Source: a virus. From it: 23,424 bases of DNA. The notes below the pieces were generated by a model. The model was not told the origin of the DNA, ran no database searches, and saw only the letters and a program-made list of their open reading frames with translations. Below, in pieces: positions 1,072-9,865 of this stretch. The position numbers and the translations under genes are program-made. Each line of letters begins with the position of its first letter. The first letter of the stretch is position 1. The DNA lies in the IMG/VR virus record IMGVR_UViG_3300044625_000915, positions 1-23,424 of that record; one strand, 5' to 3'.

Positions 1072-1485
1072 TCAAATAAAGATATTCACAATCTCATTCA
1101 TCACCCCCTCACCGCCTTTGACTGGTAGGATGTTTATGTCCTTAATAAACCGGACCTCCGATTGGGCATCTTTAGGGCAAAACATGAACTTGGCCTTTCG
1201 TAGCATTGGAATGTCCCAAGCCGAGTCCCCGATGGCAACATCGTAGTGGAATGGGATTTCCTCTTTGTTTCGAAGGATGTGCAATTGTGCCCCGGACTTT
1301 TTAAGGTACGATTCTGCCCCCGGCCAACTGGATGCGGTCACAATGTGGACCTCATGGCCGTTTGCGATTAGTTCCCTGATGGCCGTCAGATCACGGGAAT
1401 TGAATCCTTTGGAGATGTCCCCGTCCTTTGTGACCCAGATTTTGCCATCGGTCAGGACTCCGTCAATATCAACGCAGAATATCAT
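1072..1485 (-). CDS. KdsC-like HAD phosphatase
   Basis: This 137-residue protein has the HAD superfamily motifs: DIDGVLTDG at residues 6-14 (nucleophile D6, acid/base D8), T50 in VTAS, and GDSAWD at 86-91 with metal-binding D87 and D91. The C-terminal KGGEGVMNE matches the GGxGxxxE tail of KdsC-type 3-deoxy-manno-octulosonate 8-phosphate phosphatases, which have no cap domain. It is somewhat shorter than cellular KdsC (about 170-190 residues). It is the last gene of the glycosyltransferase/methyltransferase operon and starts one base after the stop of the DNA methyltransferase. The substrate is probably a sugar or nucleotide-sugar phosphate, inferred from family and neighbours. KDO-8-phosphate itself is only one option. 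Confidence 0.78.
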   Translation of the reverse strand: MIFCVDIDGVLTDGKIWVTKDGDISKGFNSRDLTAIRELIANGHEVHIVTASSWPGAESYLKKSGAQLHILRNKEEIPFHYDVAIGDSAWDIPMLRKAKFMFCPKDAQSEVRFIKDINILPVKGGEGVMNEIVNIFI

Positions 1486-2118
1486 TTAAAACAATTTTTG
1501 TTGCATTTTGTACTCTGCCCACCTTTTTTCTTGTGCCTCAAAATAATCTTTGTCTAATTCATAGCCAACAAAATCAATGTTTCCGGCTATGTCGGCTGCA
1601 ATTCGACTTGTTCCACTGCCCATAAATGTATCAATGACCTTTCCCCCTTGTGGCAGACATTTAATATAAAAGTGCTTATACCAATCAATAGGTTTTGGAC
1701 ATGGATGGTTGAAATTCCCCATTTTTTCAGTATTCGACAATTTTATAGTATCGTGTAAATATATTTTTTTGATTTTTCCATAAACCAACAATGGTTCATA
1801 AGTATTAAAACCAACATATGCTGAATGTCCTGTGCTACCTTTATACCAATTAATTAACCAATTTGGCTCATGATTTTGATAAATCCAACCAAGTTTTTTG
1901 ATTGAGCAACTTGGCATGATTACCATAGTAGTAATCCTTCTAATTTCAGGAATAAATTTGTTCATTAATTCATACCAATTTTCCTCAGTATCATTATAGC
2001 TATTATATTTTAAATTTACCCCATACGGAGGATCAACAACCGCTAAATCAAAGTATTTGTCAGGATATTCAGCCATCCCAACCATGCAGTCAATGTTAAA
2101 AACTTTACTGTTCATCAT
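1486..2118 (-). CDS. DNA methyltransferase (N4-cytosine/N6-adenine, beta-like order)
   Basis: This 210-residue protein would methylate an exocyclic amino group in DNA. The catalytic motif DPPYG lies near residues 29-33 and the SAM-binding motif DTFMGSGTS lies in the C-terminal third, so the catalytic motif precedes the SAM motif, as in the beta class. I place the start at 2118 because this ATG overlaps the TGA of the upstream methyltransferase gene as ATGA. An in-frame start at 2142 would overlap by 28 bases. No restriction enzyme gene is adjacent, so an orphan enzyme protecting phage DNA is likely. The middle of the gene is clearly more AT-rich than its neighbours, which suggests separate acquisition. 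The recognition site cannot be read from the sequence. Confidence 0.85.
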   Translation of the reverse strand: MMNSKVFNIDCMVGMAEYPDKYFDLAVVDPPYGVNLKYNSYNDTEENWYELMNKFIPEIRRITTMVIMPSCSIKKLGWIYQNHEPNWLINWYKGSTGHSAYVGFNTYEPLLVYGKIKKIYLHDTIKLSNTEKMGNFNHPCPKPIDWYKHFYIKCLPQGGKVIDTFMGSGTSRIAADIAGNIDFVGYELDKDYFEAQEKRWAEYKMQQKLF

Positions 2119-2735
2119 TTTTGTTTTATCCAGATAAACCAACGTTTGCCTTCAAATTCAACAAACTCAAGGTGTGTTGGGTCAACATCCATAATCATCA
2201 TTTGACCCAATTGGTTTTTGATGCAAAGGGTTTTGGCATCTACATAGATATCATGCTGGTGGAACCCTTGCCAATTTTCGTGTGTGCCCTCATTCTCAAA
2301 GCCTTGTAAAATCAAATAGCCTTTTGGTTTGACCGCATTCATCATGCTTTCATATGCCAATGTAGGCTGCTGGGTGTGGTCAATGGCATTTGAGCAATGC
2401 ACAATGTCAAAGTGGTTGACGGCTGGCATTTCCTCGGCCGGGAATGGCAAAGGATGGGCCAATTTGTGGGCTTTGTAGTCAAACACAAGTTGGTACAATT
2501 CCCCAAGTGGATCAATGGCCGTGACCGGAATCAACCCATTCAGGATTGAAACCACGCCCGACCCGACATCGGCAACCTGATTGTGTGGGACTGATTTTAT
2601 GAAATCGGCAACTGATTGTTGCAATTCGGGTGTCTTGACCTTTTTGACCCAGCCATTCAAAAACCTTTCGGTCTTGACAAAGCCTTTCCAAAAATTCAAT
2701 TCGTGATAGATTCCGTGTAGTTCTTTTGTTGTCAT
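2115..2735 (-). CDS. Class I SAM-dependent methyltransferase
   Basis: This 206-residue protein has the Rossmann SAM-binding motif VADVGSG (about 54-60), an acidic residue D75 at the end of the second strand (AIDPLGE), and a motif-IV-like stretch DIVHCSNAIDH, as in Methyltransf_11 enzymes. It does not look like a DNA methylase because no DPPY or NPPY is present. It lies between a glycosyltransferase gene (7-base gap) and the DNA methyltransferase (4-base ATGA overlap), so it is co-transcribed with both. A role in O-methylating a sugar or another glycan component is a reasonable inference. The acceptor is unknown. Confidence 0.75.
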   Translation of the reverse strand: MTTKELHGIYHELNFWKGFVKTERFLNGWVKKVKTPELQQSVADFIKSVPHNQVADVGSGVVSILNGLIPVTAIDPLGELYQLVFDYKAHKLAHPLPFPAEEMPAVNHFDIVHCSNAIDHTQQPTLAYESMMNAVKPKGYLILQGFENEGTHENWQGFHQHDIYVDAKTLCIKNQLGQMMIMDVDPTHLEFVEFEGKRWFIWIKQK

Positions 2736-2742
2736 TGTTTTA

Positions 2743-3372
2743 TTATTTAGGCCAAAGTTTCTTTTCCCATCCTTTACCCCACTTTTGGGTCATATGGTTT
2801 TGGCTTATTGGTGTCCAATATGCCCTCAATTGTTTCCGGATGCGTTGAATAGGGTGTTCATTCTCCGCATTTCTGAGGTAAATATGACGGATTTGACACC
2901 CGTGATCCACCCCAACCTTCAAACCTTGTTCCCGTACCCGGTAGGCCCAATCCAAATCCATGTAATAATAGGGCAACATTTCGTCCAACGGATTGTCAGC
3001 AAACACATCGGCCCGAACCATTGGGGCAGTCCATTCAATAAATGGTGCCTCCTTTTCAACTCCGATTGGGTGCAACCAATGGCTTCGATGGTCACTGGTT
3101 GACATTGCTGGGTGTATTCCGGCCCATCCGGTACGTTCTAAAGTTTGGGCCAATTTGAATGGGACATCCGCATCAAATCGGATATTGGTAACGAACCAAA
3201 GGTAATCAACTTGCCAAGTTGGGTCCATCAGGATTGTATTGAAGGCCCTTGACATATTACCCACCCCGTCCCGGCTCACGATTTCGTAACTGATTCCGCT
3301 GGCTTGGATGTCGGCGAATGTTTGCTCCCATTCCGGTTCTAAATATTCGAGTGCAACAATTAAAATTTTCAT
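2743..3372 (-). CDS. GT-A fold (family 2-like) glycosyltransferase
   Basis: This 209-residue protein shows a compact glycosyltransferase-2-like layout. The N-terminal strand is MKILIVALEY, a DxD-like element (RFDAD) sits near residues 65-69 after LWFVTN, and a late block YYMDLDWAYRVREQGLKVG ends in an RHIYLR segment. That block resembles the acceptor-side ED/D-x-R-x-x-x-x-G...H pattern of GT2 enzymes. The gene overlaps the upstream GT-B gene by 4 bases and is followed 7 bases later by a methyltransferase gene. It is shorter than most cellular GT2 proteins and has no membrane segment, so it would act in the cytoplasm. Donor and acceptor are unknown. Confidence 0.7.
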   Translation of the reverse strand: MKILIVALEYLEPEWEQTFADIQASGISYEIVSRDGVGNMSRAFNTILMDPTWQVDYLWFVTNIRFDADVPFKLAQTLERTGWAGIHPAMSTSDHRSHWLHPIGVEKEAPFIEWTAPMVRADVFADNPLDEMLPYYYMDLDWAYRVREQGLKVGVDHGCQIRHIYLRNAENEHPIQRIRKQLRAYWTPISQNHMTQKWGKGWEKKLWPK

Positions 3373-4340
3373 TGTGTTATGATTTGGTTGATTTTATTGA
3401 TCCATTTGTCCCAAGTGTTTTGTTGGGCATATTCAAGGCAGATTTTGGCCTTTTGATCCGTTAATTTATGGGAAGATAGTGCAATTTTTGCCTCGTCATA
3501 TAGCATTTGCTCATTGTATAGGCACCGGTAGGAATTTTCCATCGTTAGATCATCGTCACCCATTTCAATAGCCCTGACCGTCACCGTCCCCTTTGTCATT
3601 GCCTCAATCGGGCTGGTTGACCGGGCATCCATCTTTGTTGCCTTCAATAATATTGTGGCCCGTTGATATAGACTATTCAATCGACCCAATTCGGGTTTGA
3701 CATAATATTCGTCAACTGCTTCCGTCATTATGGTCAGCGGATTTGCCCCGTAGCCAATCACTTTGTAGCCGTCTGCCTTTAACCGCTTGGCCACTTTTAA
3801 GGTAATCAAATCCGGGTCTTTGGATGGGTTTGAAGTCTGAGGGGATTCAATCAAAATGGTTTTATAGTCTTTTATGTGTTCCAAAATTGGGAACTGATGC
3901 AAATTGATTCCATTGCCGATGTAGTGTATTAGCCCAGTTCGGCCCCATTTTGTCGTCATTTCCTCAATGTTCCAATGGCTAATTGAAAACATCGGGAATG
4001 GTGTTTGGTAAAACTTGGCACACATTTCGGCCCATTTGCGGTTGTCCGGTCGGAAATGGTGTTCCATCATTTGGACAAAGCCAAATTTTTTGGCAATCGG
4101 TTTGTCAAAATACTCCACCCCGTGTGGGCTGGTCACAATAAGGCAATCGCATCTTGTGAACACATAGGAGTTATTTGCAATCGGCACTTTAACGGGAAAC
4201 CATTTACAGGCCCTTCGCTTGGCTTGGTCGAAAATGGTAACGTGATGCCCTAAATCATGCAAATGGTTTGCCCATTCCAAAATGACACGGATGCCACCAT
4301 GTATTGAATTAACATTGGGGCAAGTGATGACAATTCTCAT
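3369..4340 (-). CDS. GT-B fold (family 4-like) glycosyltransferase
   Basis: This 323-residue protein has a two-Rossmann glycosyltransferase layout. The N-terminus (MRIVITCPN, then HGGIRVILEWANHLHDLGHHV) has the glycine-rich loop and the long following helix of GT4 enzymes. The C-terminal half has the sugar-nucleotide site, with SPIEAMTKG near residues 243-251 (E246 as the family's conserved glutamate). No membrane segment or signal peptide is seen. Start and stop overlap the neighbouring glycosyltransferase-like genes by 4 bases each, so all three are one translational unit. The sugar transferred and the target (DNA base, virion protein or host envelope) cannot be decided from sequence. Confidence 0.8.
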   Translation of the reverse strand: MRIVITCPNVNSIHGGIRVILEWANHLHDLGHHVTIFDQAKRRACKWFPVKVPIANNSYVFTRCDCLIVTSPHGVEYFDKPIAKKFGFVQMMEHHFRPDNRKWAEMCAKFYQTPFPMFSISHWNIEEMTTKWGRTGLIHYIGNGINLHQFPILEHIKDYKTILIESPQTSNPSKDPDLITLKVAKRLKADGYKVIGYGANPLTIMTEAVDEYYVKPELGRLNSLYQRATILLKATKMDARSTSPIEAMTKGTVTVRAIEMGDDDLTMENSYRCLYNEQMLYDEAKIALSSHKLTDQKAKICLEYAQQNTWDKWINKINQIITQ

Positions 4341-5026
4341 TGTTCGTATTTTGATGGGGTGGGGAAATGCTCACGCAATAACTGGGTCAGACCATTACAA
4401 ACCCCGTATGGGCCAATACTAAGCCATTTGCGGCCATTAATCTTGCCGACCCATTGTTCGTATGGCATCGGCTTATTGACCTTCAAATCGGCTAAAAACT
4501 CAAAGTTCCCGACCTCATTCATTGTATAGGCCGTTTTGATCACATACTCCTTTGACCAATCCAATCCCTCCAATGCCAAGTATTTGGCCCGTTGGTAGAC
4601 AATCGGGGTGTGGATGTCGGTGTAGTACCGATTGAGTCCAGTCAGCCCAGCCGTGTTAAGGATGGCCCCTTTGTAGTTGCCAATGGCCTTTTGCCCCCAT
4701 TCGTCAATGGTGCCATCGTACCAGTACCGGAAGTCTGCCACATCCATTTTGTCCATCAGAAAATGGTCATCGTTCCACATTATTGCCTTGTCAGAACATT
4801 CGGGATGCCGAAATGCCTCAGCGACCTTTGAGTAAATGCTCAATTGCTTTTTGCCCGGCCGGTCCTCTTTTCTTATATGGATGACATTGGTGACCCATTT
4901 GGGACACCAGCCCACAATGAAAACATTGCCGTACCCGGTCAGATTCTTTTCGATTGATCTGAGGGCATACCGCAACTCGTTGTCATTCCAACGGCTTTCA
5001 GTCCCGATCGGTAGGATAATATCCAA
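4337..5026 (-). CDS. Stealth-like sugar-phosphate/glycosyl transferase
   Basis: This 229-residue protein begins MDIILPIGTESRWNDNELR and contains WNDDHFLMD near residues 84-92 and DIHTPIVYQ at about 137-145. The N-D-D block after a hydrophobic strand and the later H-x-P block resemble the conserved regions of Stealth family capsule phosphotransferases (hexose-1-phosphate transferases), in which conserved acidic residues bind metal. It is shorter than most Stealth proteins. The gene overlaps the small regulator-like gene upstream by 29 bases and the GT-B gene downstream by 4. A role in moving sugar or sugar phosphate to an acceptor is inferred. A divergent GT-A protein is the main alternative. 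Confidence 0.6.
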   Translation of the reverse strand: MDIILPIGTESRWNDNELRYALRSIEKNLTGYGNVFIVGWCPKWVTNVIHIRKEDRPGKKQLSIYSKVAEAFRHPECSDKAIMWNDDHFLMDKMDVADFRYWYDGTIDEWGQKAIGNYKGAILNTAGLTGLNRYYTDIHTPIVYQRAKYLALEGLDWSKEYVIKTAYTMNEVGNFEFLADLKVNKPMPYEQWVGKINGRKWLSIGPYGVCNGLTQLLREHFPTPSKYEQ

Positions 5027-5201
5027 TGATTCGTTTTTTAAGGATCAGGGGGATCAAAATATCTCTCACGGCATTTGTCAAACTGCCAAATTCGGCCAAT
5101 ATCAAATTTTTTTCCTCGTCTGTTAAATATGCTGAAACCAACTTTTTGCGTTGATTATCAGGCAGTTTTGTCCGTCCTCGTTTCGGTTTGATTGTTTCCA
5201 T
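4998..5201 (-). CDS. Small ribbon-helix-helix-like protein, candidate regulator
   Basis: This 67-residue basic protein starts METIKPKRGRTKLPDNQRKK, followed by a strand-like YLTDEEKNLILAEFG and two helices (TNAVRDILIPLIL). A short basic arm, a beta strand and two helices is the ribbon-helix-helix plan of MetJ/Arc- and MobC-like DNA-binding proteins. It is the first gene of the leftward operon, and its start lies at the edge of a divergent promoter region with a palindrome, a usual place for an autoregulator. A perfect -7 box (5206-5213, minus) ends only a few bases before the ATG, so the message may be almost leaderless. Function is inferred from fold and place; no DNA-contact residues were tested. 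Confidence 0.6.
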   Translation of the reverse strand: METIKPKRGRTKLPDNQRKKLVSAYLTDEEKNLILAEFGSLTNAVRDILIPLILKKRIIGYYPTDRD

Positions 5202-5205
5202 TCAA

Positions 5206-5213
5206 CAAATTTA
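5206..5213 (-). promoter_or_regulatory. -7 promoter box for the leftward sugar-modification operon
   Basis: The minus strand reads TAAATTTG, a full match to TAnnTTTG. It ends four bases before the ATG at 5201, so a start site at the normal distance would give a nearly leaderless transcript. No exact -33 TTTG is seen upstream. Confidence 0.45.
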
Positions 5214-5223
5214 CGGGAAAATG

Positions 5224-5235
5224 AAAAATATTTTT
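5224..5235. repeat. 12-bp AT palindrome between divergent promoters
   Basis: AAAAATATTTTT is a perfect palindrome. It overlaps the -33 element of the rightward promoter (5233-5236) and lies about ten bases upstream of the leftward -7 box. One bound protein there could control both directions. The ribbon-helix-helix-like product of the adjacent gene is the natural candidate. AT palindromes can arise by chance in AT-rich spacers, so an operator role is only suggested. Confidence 0.35.
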
Positions 5236-5265
5236 GGTTTTGTGGAAATGTTTATGTTATCTTTG
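5233..5265 (+). promoter_or_regulatory. Early rightward promoter, Bacteroidetes -33/-7 type
   Basis: TTTG at 5233-5236 and TATCTTTG at 5258-5265 are separated by 21 bases, a good match to the TTTG/TAnnTTTG promoter. A second TTTG (5239-5242) would give a shorter, less usual spacer of 15. The box ends 18 bases before the ATG at 5284. This promoter would drive the small membrane proteins and the genes that follow. Confidence 0.65.
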
Positions 5266-5283
5266 AATCCTAAACCAACCACA

Positions 5284-5373
5284 ATGAAAAAACAAACAGA
5301 CCTCAACCCTTGGGCATTCTTAGCCATCATGATTGCTATCCTTTACATCGTAAACCAAATCGAAAACTTTTAA
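5284..5373 (+). CDS. Small single-pass membrane protein, first early gene
   Basis: The 29-residue product reads MKKQTDLNPWAFLAIMIAIL and then YIVNQIENF. One hydrophobic stretch of about 15 residues (WAFLAIMIAILYIV) could cross the inner membrane. I chose the ATG at 5284 rather than the longer in-frame start at 5188 because the -33/-7 promoter lies inside that extension. The gene ends three bases before the next ATG. Such small early membrane proteins are often host-takeover or superinfection factors, but nothing here proves that. Confidence 0.5.
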   Translation: MKKQTDLNPWAFLAIMIAILYIVNQIENF

Positions 5374-5376
5374 GCC

Positions 5377-7289: not shown

Positions 7290-7675
7290 TGACACACGAA
7301 CAATTAACCGAAAAGGCGACTAAATTCCAATCATTTTTGGAGGGTAAGTTTGGCAACGAACCGGACGAACTATTAGAACGCATCCAGCACCTTGCAATTT
7401 TGGTCGCTCAGTCCGGGCAATGTTTGGCCGAGGCAAAGCAACACCAAGACGCAGTAATAAACGGGGCCATTGGTGAGGCCATTGAGAAACTATACAATGA
7501 AAAGTTGTCGGCCTCAACCATCAACCAATTTGTCCGAACCGCCGCCAAGGATCAAAACTACCTTGTCAACTGGTTGGACCGGATAAATGCCACGGCTACG
7601 CATCAACTGGATGCCATCCGCACAATCATTTCGTATCGCAAATCCGAGTTTAATGCTTTGAATTATGGCACTTGA
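7289..7675 (+). CDS. Helical hypothetical protein of the early operon
   Basis: The 128-residue product is nearly all helical, ending in a conserved-looking block (QNYLVNWLDRINATATHQLD, then IRTIISYRKSEF). Similar 'RINxTxTHQLDxxRT' ends occur in small phage proteins upstream of recombination or replication genes, but none has a role known to me. Start and stop each overlap a neighbour (1 base with the previous gene, 11 with NinG), so it is translated as part of the operon. Confidence 0.7.
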   Translation: MTHEQLTEKATKFQSFLEGKFGNEPDELLERIQHLAILVAQSGQCLAEAKQHQDAVINGAIGEAIEKLYNEKLSASTINQFVRTAAKDQNYLVNWLDRINATATHQLDAIRTIISYRKSEFNALNYGT

Positions 7676-8084
7676 AACAATCCCCAAATTGACGGCAAAA
7701 GCCCAACGGATATTCAACACCTATATCCGTGAGAGGGATAGCCGAAATGGGTTTTTCACTTGCATTTCGTGTTTCCGGTCATTGCCGACTGATCAAATGG
7801 ATGCTGGGCATTACGTTCCGGTTAAAGGTGGGTCATTCCTTAGGTTTCATGAGTGGAATGTAAATGGCGAATGTAAACGATGCAACGGCTTCGATGAATT
7901 TCATTTGATAGGCTACCGAAAACACCTGATAATGAAACTCGGAAAGGATGCGGTCGAATGGTTGGAAAGTCACCGCCATGAGGTTAAAAAGTGGACACGT
8001 ACGGAACTAAACGAAATCATCACCAAATACAAAACAAATGGCAAAGCAAAGTCAAACAGATCAGATTCTCAATTACCTTTCTGA
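7665..8084 (+). CDS. ninG: NinG/Rap-like recombination nuclease
   Basis: This 139-residue protein has the NinG (lambda Rap) plan: an N-terminal helix (LTAKAQRIFNTYIRERD), CxxC at C33/C36, the GHY block (D46, G48, H49), RFHEWNVNGEC and a second CxxC at C70/C73, then YRKHLIMKLGKDAVEWLE. In lambda, Rap is a structure-specific nuclease that cuts branched DNA such as D-loops and Holliday junctions in Red recombination. The four cysteines and the histidine suggest a zinc-bound HNH-like core. It ends in DSQLPF, which resembles an SSB tail, as does the gene two upstream. The gene overlaps the winged-helix gene downstream by 47 bases. Confidence 0.85.
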   Translation: MALETIPKLTAKAQRIFNTYIRERDSRNGFFTCISCFRSLPTDQMDAGHYVPVKGGSFLRFHEWNVNGECKRCNGFDEFHLIGYRKHLIMKLGKDAVEWLESHRHEVKKWTRTELNEIITKYKTNGKAKSNRSDSQLPF

Positions 8085-8241
8085 TGGTAAAGTGATCACC
8101 TCAATTGAAGCATTAAACAAATTCGGATGCTTCAGATTGGCGGCCCGTATTGCTGACCTAAGGAAAAGCGGACACCTAATTTTCACCGATTCAATCACCA
8201 AAAATGGCAAAACATATGCCAGCTACAAATTAATCAAATGA
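8038..8241 (+). CDS. Small winged-helix DNA-binding protein
   Basis: This 67-residue protein is one small HTH domain: a first helix (TDQILNYLSDGK), then ITSIEALNKFGCFRLAARIADLRKSG, with the recognition helix in the RLAARIADLRK segment, and a C-terminal beta wing (LIFTDSITKNGKTYASYKL). This matches the short phage helix-turn-helix proteins of the HTH_39 type. It starts 47 bases inside ninG in another frame and overlaps the next gene by ATGA. It could regulate early transcription or assist the replication protein that follows; the sequence does not decide. Confidence 0.75.
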   Translation: MAKQSQTDQILNYLSDGKVITSIEALNKFGCFRLAARIADLRKSGHLIFTDSITKNGKTYASYKLIK

Positions 8242-8678
8242 TCCAGTACATCAAAACAGCAAAGGCAATCATTGAAAAGTATTGTGAAACAATGGAAGTC
8301 CCGGTTGAGATTCTATTAAGGAGAAGTAAAAATAATAAGGGCAGATACGGGACAAGGTGTTCAAGGGTTTACAAAACAATTTCGCTTTCCTTTATGCGGC
8401 AATGCCTTGGGTATTATCTCTACAAAAACCTTCCACTAACAACCACCCAAATTGGTCAAATGATTGGGTATTCAGATCATTCGTCGGTTGTCCTTTACTC
8501 AAAAATCGTTGAGGACCATTTTCAAATTAAAGACCCGTATTTTATACCCTATTATGACAAACTGGTTGAGGTGGCCACCCCACTCATGAAAGATGTCGAA
8601 TTTGACCGGAATGACATTTGGAAGGTACGGTATCAAAGATCTGTGGATAAAAGAGTGGGCAAACTTTTGGCAGTGTAA
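8238..8678 (+). CDS. DnaA domain IV-like replication protein
   Basis: This 146-residue protein carries a region like the DNA-binding domain IV of DnaA: a long helix (SFMRQCLGYYLYKNL), then LTTTQIGQMIGYSDHSSVVLYSKIVEDHF (about 67-95). In DnaA the corresponding block is IGxxFGxRDHTTVxHA, which contacts the DnaA box. There is no AAA+ ATPase domain, so it could bind origin DNA but not form the DnaA oligomer. The gene's own 3' part contains a perfect DnaA box (8642-8650). A phage initiator or a recruiter of host replication proteins is the likely role. Start overlaps the upstream stop as ATGA. Confidence 0.75.
   Translation: MIQYIKTAKAIIEKYCETMEVPVEILLRRSKNNKGRYGTRCSRVYKTISLSFMRQCLGYYLYKNLPLTTTQIGQMIGYSDHSSVVLYSKIVEDHFQIKDPYFIPYYDKLVEVATPLMKDVEFDRNDIWKVRYQRSVDKRVGKLLAV
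8642..8650 (-). other. Perfect DnaA box (TTATCCACA on the minus strand)
   Basis: The plus strand reads TGTGGATAA, the reverse complement of the 9-base DnaA consensus TTATCCACA. It lies inside the DnaA-like gene, just before a structured non-coding region. A single 9-mer can occur by chance, but the location beside a DnaA-like gene makes it a candidate part of the phage origin. Confidence 0.45.
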
Positions 8679-8746
8679 CAAAAAAAGACTATTATTGTGA
8701 CAACAAAGGCTCACCGGATTTTCCGCTTTGTTTTGAATAAGATTGA

Positions 8747-8795
8747 AACCGATTGGGGGGAGGCTGTGAGCGCCGAACCTCGGTCGGTTTTTTTT
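8747..8795 (+). terminator. Intrinsic terminator after the DnaA-like gene
   Basis: Outer arms AACCGA (8747-8752) and TCGGTT (8784-8789) and inner arms GAGG (8760-8763) and CCTC (8778-8781) make a bulged hairpin, followed by an unbroken run of T to 8795 (8 T from 8788). This would end the early transcript. It also shows that the ORF reading through 8697-8933 is not a real gene. Confidence 0.65.
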
Positions 8796-8831
8796 ATAGG
8801 TTTTTGCCCCATTTTACCCAGCCATACAGGA

Positions 8832-8933
8832 ATGGCAAATAAAATGGTTCGGTTAGTCCACTACGAAGGCATAAAGTATTGGCAATGTCGACCCCTGACA
8901 ACCAATGACGGGCAAGTAGATTGTAAGCCGTGA
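8832..8933 (+). CDS. Possible 33-residue small protein
   Basis: From the ATG at 8832, preceded by AGGA, a 33-residue frame reads MANKMVRLVHYEGIKYWQCR and ends ...DCKP with a TGA. It has two cysteines and codon use similar to neighbours. It follows the terminator and precedes hairpins. Its shortness and lack of a known family make it uncertain, and a non-coding structured role for the same bases is equally possible. Confidence 0.25.
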   Translation: MANKMVRLVHYEGIKYWQCRPLTTNDGQVDCKP

Positions 8934-8976
8934 CAAACCCCTCCACGGATAGGGTGGAACGGACTGGAACCGATTG

Positions 8977-9023
8977 ACTGAGGACCCTGTAAACCCTTTT
9001 AGGGTCATTTTGATTGCCTCAGT
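8977..9023 (+). repeat. Nested inverted repeat upstream of the replication gene
   Basis: Outer arms ACTGAGG (8977-8983) and CCTCAGT (9017-9023) enclose ACCCT (8984-8988) pairing with AGGGT (9001-9005). A second ACCCT (8993-8997) can pair with the same AGGGT, so two inner hairpins compete. No T-run follows, so a regulatory or origin structure fits better than a terminator. Confidence 0.45.
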
Positions 9024-9102
9024 AATTTGGACCAAGGATTTGATTGGATGCGATCAACCCCCTTGCCCGGATATAGAGGGGATGTACCCAAACCTGAAGG
9101 AA

Positions 9103-9423
9103 ATGAGCAAACAAACCCAGATATTTGACCACGAACTCCCATTTGGGCCTTTATTTGCTCAAAAATGGGCTGAATGGTTGCAGTATAGGACGGAAAGGAA
9201 ATTGGCTAAATATCGCCCAATGGGTCTTAAAATGGCCTTAAAACGCATTGTTAGGGAATCTAATGACACAGAAACAATTGCCGTCGATATGTTGGACTAT
9301 TCAATGGAAATGAATTACCAAGGAATCTTCAAACGCAAATATGCTACACATCAACGAACTAATGAAAGTCCAAATCGGGTTGGAACCAGTGATGCCCGAA
9401 TTGATGCCCTCCAAAAATGGTGA
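9103..9423 (+). CDS. Phage replication-associated protein (replisome-organizer C-terminal domain-like)
   Basis: The 106-residue product, from the ATG at 9103, contains LPFGPLFAQKWAEWLQYRTE, then KYRPMGLKMALKRI...MLDYSMEMNYQGIF. A tryptophan-rich helix pair followed by a 'S...xxQGIF' block is the C-terminal domain often fused to phage replication initiators. Its end, GTSDARIDALQKW, also resembles ends of phage replication proteins. Here the domain stands alone, and the DNA-binding part may be the DnaA-like or winged-helix protein upstream. An in-frame ATG at 9082 would add seven residues; the longer frame from 8974 runs through the hairpin and is unlikely. The gene overlaps the next one by about 80 bases. 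Confidence 0.65.
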   Translation: MSKQTQIFDHELPFGPLFAQKWAEWLQYRTERKLAKYRPMGLKMALKRIVRESNDTETIAVDMLDYSMEMNYQGIFKRKYATHQRTNESPNRVGTSDARIDALQKW

Positions 9424-9865
9424 GGTTGCCAAATTTCAACAAGCCCTCCAAACCCAGCGGATTGCCCAACTGGACACCGAACCGCTAAAACAGGCCCTCC
9501 GTTATGCGATGGTCCTTGTCGGGATCAAAGCCCACAACGTACCCAATGACCGGGAAAAAACCGTGTTGATTCAGTTTATCCAAAAGAACTATGGCGGCCA
9601 CACCCCGGACGAAATTCGATTGGCCTTTGATTTAGCCGTGTCGGGTGAATTGGATGTTGAGGATGTGAAGTGTTACGAAAACTTCAGCCCCCTTTATTTT
9701 GCCTCAATTATGAATGCATACCGTATATGGGCAAGGCATAAGCACAAAGAATTGAAACCAAAACCCAATGAAATGACGGCCGATGAAAAGATAAACATTG
9801 AGTTGGAATATGCCGCTTACCTTCAAAAACAAGTTGACAAATGGCCAAGCAAGATTCGCCCGTAA
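9341..9865 (+). CDS. Putative replication protein, possible helicase loader
   Basis: This 174-residue protein is largely helical, with LKQALRYAMVLVGIKAHNVP, then FIQKNYGGHTPDEIRLAFDL and CYENFSPLYFASIMNAYRIW. The 'GxTxxEIxxAF...fSPxYFxxIMxAYR' pattern is seen in proteins next to phage replication initiators and could load or recruit the replicative helicase. I base this on pattern and position only. The assigned start overlaps the previous gene by 83 bases; an in-frame ATG at 9404 would cut the overlap to 20. It overlaps the next gene by 25 bases. No helicase gene is in the window. Confidence 0.5.
   Translation: MLHINELMKVQIGLEPVMPELMPSKNGEVAKFQQALQTQRIAQLDTEPLKQALRYAMVLVGIKAHNVPNDREKTVLIQFIQKNYGGHTPDEIRLAFDLAVSGELDVEDVKCYENFSPLYFASIMNAYRIWARHKHKELKPKPNEMTADEKINIELEYAAYLQKQVDKWPSKIRP

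Follow-up and report, generated by a model that had tools for sequence, protein, structure and literature searches.

Two conserved, covarying RNA structures upstream of replication-type genes in a predicted Bacteroidota phage

Much is known about the control of replication genes by leader RNAs in the plasmids of enterobacteria and in lambdoid phages; in phages of Bacteroidota, to our knowledge, such control has hardly been studied. Plasmids of the pT181 type use countertranscript attenuation: the control point is a terminator in the replication-gene leader, and an antisense RNA drives the process. In phage lambda, the layout is the nin region, Q, pR', the 6S RNA, and tR', and Q controls the leader. 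In the IncI-alpha, IncB, and IncK plasmids (SLI and RNAI), a leader pseudoknot controls the replication initiator, and the loop sequences set the specificity (PMC10724649). The put RNAs of phage HK022 are short, two-stem-loop elements located close to where an early transcript begins, and they prevent termination (PMC9378689).

The locus described here is a 424-bp gap (8679–9102) in positions 1–23,424 of the IMG/VR virus record IMGVR_UViG_3300044625_000915; this whole stretch of 23,424 bases is hereafter called the window. The gap, given as about 400 non-coding bases in a preliminary description of the same DNA, is the longest in the window. Comparison with related contigs indicates that it is the gene, or genes, for two folded, previously uncatalogued phage RNAs (RNA1 and RNA2), with a probability of about 0.95 for their existence and structure. 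The region appears most similar to the plasmid replication leaders controlled by pseudoknots or attenuators, and its layout resembles those of phage leader RNAs, a likeness that stops short of a membership established by tests. Like the IncI-alpha/IncB/IncK leaders, it is a structured leader located 5' of a replication gene with a long-range loop pairing (here a kissing helix). In those leaders, the loop is contested by an opposite-strand antisense RNA and translation is the step controlled; here, the second hairpin of RNA1 is an intrinsic terminator. The minus strand at ~8.7–9.1 kb yielded no TTTG...TAnnTTTG-like site, and hence no antisense promoter, and a sigma-70-type scan of this strand gave only one consensus match (8838–8811), at chance level. 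The leader terminator as the control point for a replication gene is shared with the pT181 type, which differs in its antisense RNA, of which the minus-strand promoter scan gave no sign here. Lambda pR'-6S RNA-tR' likewise has a promoter, a short RNA, and an intrinsic terminator that immediately follow a DNA-binding gene close to NinG, but here replication genes lie downstream. No Q homolog was found, and we know of no lambda counterpart to the kissing helix. With HK022 put, RNA1 shares its small size and its two stem-loops; unlike put, it ends in a terminator and possesses a loop-to-loop helix, a feature not known to us from the description of put (PMC9378689).

The late genes of the window (neck, tail, and endolysin) run leftward from its right end to about 10.15 kb, and the terminase genes, also leftward, run off its left end. 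Because the two groups are arranged in this manner, the window is probably a piece of a circular or circularly permuted genome. Positions 1072–5026, between the terminase genes and the rightward module, hold genes for a DNA methylase, a methyltransferase, and a HAD-like protein, as well as two genes with weak matches, one glycosyltransferase-like and the other Stealth CR2-like; these genes possibly have a role in surface-sugar modification. The rightward module (~5.3–10.2 kb) is of recombination- and replication-type content and consists, in order, of small genes, NinG (7665–8084, + strand), a winged-helix gene, a DnaA-domain-IV-like gene, the 424-bp gap, an O-like gene, and two more genes. 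A probable promoter of this operon lies at 5234–5265 (+) in the 350-bp gap (5027–5376) between the leftward and rightward genes; its -7 box TATCTTTG at 5258 marks the only perfect TTTG...TAnnTTTG copy in the window, at the point where the rightward module begins. The O-like gene (9103–9423, +) corresponds to a C-terminal domain, matching PHROG 678 (replication initiation O-like) with an E-value of 3e-5 and, weakly in tblastn, the O proteins of Gifsy/SPN3UB (E 0.02). The second replication-module gene (9341–9865, +) has tblastn relatives in phages of Bacteroides, Parabacteroides, Alistipes, and Elizabethkingia, and in Bacteroidota phages these relatives sit behind initiator-type genes. On the basis of the promoter type and these relatives, we infer that the host group is Bacteroidota.

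Relatives were drawn from IMG/VR contigs, and the number of members is a lower bound. A protein search found L002 and L003, and DNA patterns from the gap found L007 and L009. A relaxed pattern of the terminator core then gave L037, where the entire gap is retained but is less similar, and seven contigs retaining the first element (RNA1) alone (L021, L022, L025, L027, L029, L030, and L031; the L021 group). Matches to L005, L008, L023, L024, L026, L028, L032–L036, and L038–L058 lacked the flanking features of RNA1 and were attributed to chance, as were a single match in an alphaproteobacterial assembly (L010) and the extra matches of a still looser pattern. Among the window, L002, L003, L007, and L009, the gap is better conserved overall than the preceding DnaA-like gene (mean identity of 0.66–0.94 per part versus 0.62). 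Folding of the single sequence found the region just slightly unusual (z = -1.9), and the case for folded RNAs therefore depends on the comparison with relatives. No significant DNA match was found in cultured phages for RNA1 or for 8238–9110, nor in plasmids for RNA1. Rfam gave nothing at gathering score in the window, and at E-values as high as 10 the window region, L021, and L037 showed only chance-level matches. In the open-access literature, no account of this RNA came to light; novelty was judged against Rfam and that literature. Large collections of candidate RNAs from human microbiomes also exist (PMC8040213).

RNA1 extends over ~8700–8795 on the + strand (about 95 nt), its elements being, in order, a promoter, a hairpin, and a terminator hairpin. 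The promoter (8666–8697, +) is of the Bacteroidota type, composed of TTTG (8666–8669), N20, and TATTATTG (8690–8697). It overlaps the end of the DnaA-like gene and has one mismatch to the consensus TTTG/TAnnTTTG (PMC7366714), and perfect forms occur at the homologous place in L037 and in the L021 group. Both components of a small-RNA unit, a TTTG...TAnnTTTG promoter and a 3' terminator, are thus present at RNA1. Hairpin H1 (8703–8731) has an outer stem (8703–8708/8726–8731) and an inner stem (8715–8718/8722–8725), and the latter covaries as CGGA/UCCG, CGGC/GCCG, and CAGC/GCUG. The terminator-like hairpin of the preliminary description proved to be real (8745–8791, G+C-rich, followed by 8 T). 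In this hairpin T (8745–8795), 8745–8758 pairs with 8778–8791 below an upper stem of GGC (8762–8764) and GCC (8772–8774), and the U run occupies 8788–8795. Its core, GGGGGAGGC-N7-GCC(A/G)AACCTC, occurs in at least 13 contigs. The stem substitutions in L037 are compensatory; the T tract is weaker in the L021 group, and the hairpin itself is conserved in all 13.

The two hairpins are joined by a 6-bp kissing helix, in which GCUCAC of H1 (8709–8714) pairs at all six positions with GUGAGC in the loop of T (8766–8771). The helix is perfect (6/6) in 13 IMG/VR contigs with seven distinct base-pair sets: GCUCAC/GUGAGC in the window and GGCCAC/GUGGUC, GUUCCC/GGGAAC, GACGAC/GUCGUC, GGCUAC/GUAGCC, GUGCAG/CUGCAC, and GAGCGA/UCGCUC in the others. 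When the arms were swapped between members, full pairing resulted in just 1 of 42 combinations. In a search of all covarying helices in the gap, the kissing helix was the best, having four compensated pairs against a maximum of three in 100 column shuffles. For RNA1 as a whole, 9 of 33 pairs are compensated, with a covariation score of 0.252 versus 0.115 after shuffling; these formal counts slightly understate the pairing, since MAFFT displaces H1 by one base in some members. The RNAalifold z-score was -6.5 for RNA1 as compared with -0.2 and -2.7 for coding controls, and a covariance model built from five members recovered the seven L021-group RNAs (E 5e-8 to 1e-9; next chance match, 0.16). 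Over RNA1 and RNA2 together there were 27 G-U cells and one A-C cell, which identifies the + strand RNA as the molecule that folds.

Apart from two kissing alleles, a single G/A change, and a missing G, the promoter and RNA1 (97 nt) are identical in the seven L021-group contigs. Between L021 and L022, six differences fall in these 97 nt, all of them within the 12 kissing positions; assuming equally likely sites, the chance of this clustering is about 9e-7. The gene in front of RNA1 is 99% identical between the two contigs, whereas the gene behind is 34% identical, and the downstream flanks within the group form a mosaic with identities of 31–100%. In L022 and L029, RNA1 is fully shared and the flanks are unlike on either side. 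RNA1 in this group is thus an island among mosaic modules, with the kissing pair exchanged as a matched set. Selection on the exchanged pair is suggested, and not more, because the independent events are few. RNA1 of this group ends a few bases 5' of genes with weak-to-moderate matches to replication-initiation, winged-helix/DnaD-like, or primosomal families, and a DnaB helicase gene comes next where the contig extends far enough. The replication-initiation gene 3' of the near-constant RNA1 comes in several unlike versions (L021 2223–3180; L027 525–1238; L022 3821–4204, reverse strand), and the DnaB helicase downstream of the swapped gene is nearly constant (L021, L027, L029, and L031). RNA1 therefore precedes replication genes in two unlike contexts, namely O-like genes in the window type and initiator genes in the L021 group. 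No RNA2 follows RNA1 directly in the L021 group, which means that the two RNAs need not work together.

RNA2 (~8800–9081, + strand, about 280 nt) has at least seven helices and ends 21 nt 5' of the O-like gene. Compensatory changes were observed in 17 of 40 tested pairs, and 98.8% of cells are paired, a value that falls to 33–46% when the partner is slid by one to three columns. The covariation score is 0.408 versus 0.138 for shuffled columns and at most 0.063 for slid ones. Run on RNA2 by itself, RNAalifold gave no significant result (z = -1.5), and the case therefore depends on the pair-by-pair counts with L037 included. Hairpin H3 (8809–8847) covaries in its outer and inner stems. Hairpin H5 (8877–8907) has four compensated pairs in its outer stem, which occurs as UAUUGG/CCAAUG, UUUGGG/CCCAAG, UGUUGG/CCAACG, and UGAGAG/CUCUUG. 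The H5 loop CCCCU (8892–8896) may form a long-range pseudoknot with AGGGG at 9077–9081, a proposal with moderate support: the pairing is present in six of six homologs, and L037 has CUCCU/AGGAG, in which one compensatory change gives a U-A pair. The long-range stem P1 joins CGGGCAAG (8909–8916) to 9062–9069 and encloses P2 and P3; in L037 it reads CGGUGAAG/CUUCACCG, with two compensatory changes across about 150 nt. The 3' strand of P1 together with GGAUAUAGAGG covers 9062–9081 just 5' of the O-like gene, and GGAUAUAGAGG is identical in all six full homologs. Two of the elements had been noticed before. The competing hairpins described at 8928–8958 are present, but only P2 (8939–8954; 8939–8942/8951–8954, CCCU/AGGG) is conserved across relatives, with the variants CCAC/GUGG, CCGC/GCGG, and CUGC/GCAG. 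The nested repeat at 8977–9023 is real and constitutes P3, whose outer stem has four covarying pairs and carries a single mismatch in L007 and another in L009, but its inner ACCCT/AGGGT pairing is limited to the window and L003. L002 is a recombinant within the leader (window 8967–9060; L002 4726–4830): its DnaA-like gene is window-like, and its P3 and P4 are L009-like, with identities of 93–100% to L009 versus 50–62% to the window. Immediately 3' of the terminator, UAGGUUUUU(G/U)CCC (8797–8808) is kept in all six full homologs, and no conserved pairing partner was found for it.

The preliminary description had left open whether the region is an origin or a regulatory RNA. The strong covariation found in the related phages and the G-U pattern of a + strand RNA support the latter. 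That the region is, or contains, a replication origin, with RNA1 (which has a conserved G run) giving a primer or R-loop and the DnaA-like protein binding nearby, appears quite improbable to us. In its favor, the window's longest non-coding gap is flanked by DnaA-domain-IV-like and O-like genes, and RNA1 is located 5' of replication-type genes in both contexts seen. The gene on the upstream side (8238–8678, +) indeed encodes a lone DnaA-domain-IV-like DNA-binding protein of 146 aa, as had been described: the match to Pfam Bac_DnaA_C (E 1.7e-5, below the family cut-off) and the predicted fold agree. The AlphaFold model has a mean pLDDT of 74, and its best fold matches, modest ones, are the DnaA DNA-binding domains 3pvp and 1j1v (target TM 0.73–0.75, E 0.007–0.04). 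R54, D80, H81, and S82 are invariant across six relatives, and the profile gave no match against PDB sequences. This gene and the lone O-like C-terminal domain stand on either side of the RNA (8238–9423) and together could be a split initiator. The DnaA box reported at the end of the gene is an exact TTATCCACA (8642–8650, minus strand), but it lies inside the coding sequence, within S-V-D-K codons, instead of adjoining the gene. It is kept in L002, L003, and L007 and missing from two of the five relatives: other letters replace it in L009, and the corresponding place in L037 lacks it. It is therefore no evidence of an origin, and the string is probably incidental. Boxes with one mismatch are not enriched in the window either (5 found versus 8.7 expected). 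The repeated ACCGATTG was confirmed at 8749–8756 and 8969–8976, and the pair is kept in four near relatives (with one change in the second copy of L009) but lost in L037; a role as an iteron, or in pairing of a terminator arm with the leader, was ruled out by its loss there. The GC skew, proposed earlier as a check, is near zero and shows no switch, and at the scale of 1-kb windows the GC content is 0.41–0.44 over 8.0–9.5 kb with no AT-rich dip. With the conservation accounted for by RNA helices, the candidate origin is left unsupported. The lambdoid plan suggested for the locus fares likewise as to an origin in or next to the initiator, and holds insofar as the downstream gene is weakly O-like and NinG lies upstream. 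We find it scarcely credible that the conserved stretch is protein-coding (small ORF 8832–8933) with structure as a by-product. The window, L003, L007, and L009 share, with small changes, an open ATG-started frame of ~28–33 codons, but it is frameshifted in L002, third codon positions are not enriched for changes, the ATG falls between the paired arms of the covarying H3, and the frame spans just a quarter of the conserved region. The ORF was rejected for its frameshift, its change pattern, and its overlap with H3.

No Bacteroidota promoter with a -33 box common to the relatives was found at 8796–9102, between the terminator and the O-like gene. The replication genes therefore probably depend on read-through at T, and we propose RNA1 to be an attenuated leader, or small RNA, gating them; the O-like genes could also use a promoter type outside those scanned. 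Polymerase would start at the RNA1 promoter or arrive from the upstream operon, most transcription would end at T with release of RNA1, and the read-through fraction would allow the replication proteins to be made. T, held by the kissing H1, would then be a checkpoint in the replication-gene leader and, as an attenuator, would time or restrict replication; RNA2 would be a second cis-acting control by the start codon, probably on translation. To this two-layer gating by RNA1/T and RNA2 we give roughly even odds. Because no alternative anti-terminator pairing was found, any switch would need an additional factor; the kissing helix spares the terminator stem and alone would favor termination.

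Two further readings concern how RNA1 acts. RNA1 may instead be mainly a trans-acting small RNA, its loops acting on a different RNA or on another RNA1 molecule (a loop-exchange dimer), with the fast-changing kissing pair as the specificity key, as is the case for antisense-controlled plasmids; we regard this as possible and rather unlikely. RNA1 is a complete unit with its own promoter and terminator, and the L021/L022 differences are confined to kissing positions while the flanks are mosaic. Against this reading, no complementary stretch of at least 11 nt occurs elsewhere in the window, the matches in the L002 genome have no counterpart in the window, the antisense-strand promoter scan of the region was negative, and intramolecular pairing accounts for the covariation with no target needed. 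Alternatively, the DnaA-like protein could be a Q-type antiterminator or activator at the RNA1 promoter, with RNA1/T equivalent to the 6S RNA and tR' of a lambda-like late arrangement. The order of NinG, a small HTH gene, a DNA-binding gene, promoter, short RNA, and terminator does recall that of the nin region, Q, pR', and tR'. This seems highly improbable, given that replication genes and not lysis or late genes follow RNA1 and that the window's late genes are on the other strand. The upstream DNA-binding gene occupies the Q-like place in the window and L037, but a different gene precedes RNA1 in the L021 group.

Even with the attenuated leader as the preferred reading, the kissing pair may also carry allele-specific trans pairing between RNA copies, since its two arms change together in an otherwise fixed RNA1. 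A bolder proposal, which we consider distinctly unlikely, is that RNA1 represents a new phage RNA class in which the kissing helix is an exchangeable identity key, so that each lineage would control or block replication only where phages share its key, as in plasmid incompatibility. One locus has thus yielded two well-defined RNA structures, neither represented in Rfam, and covariation sufficient for designing clean break-and-restore mutants. Because the kissing pair is matched and exchangeable in an otherwise fixed RNA, whether RNA loop identity separates the replication control of related phages can be tested directly.
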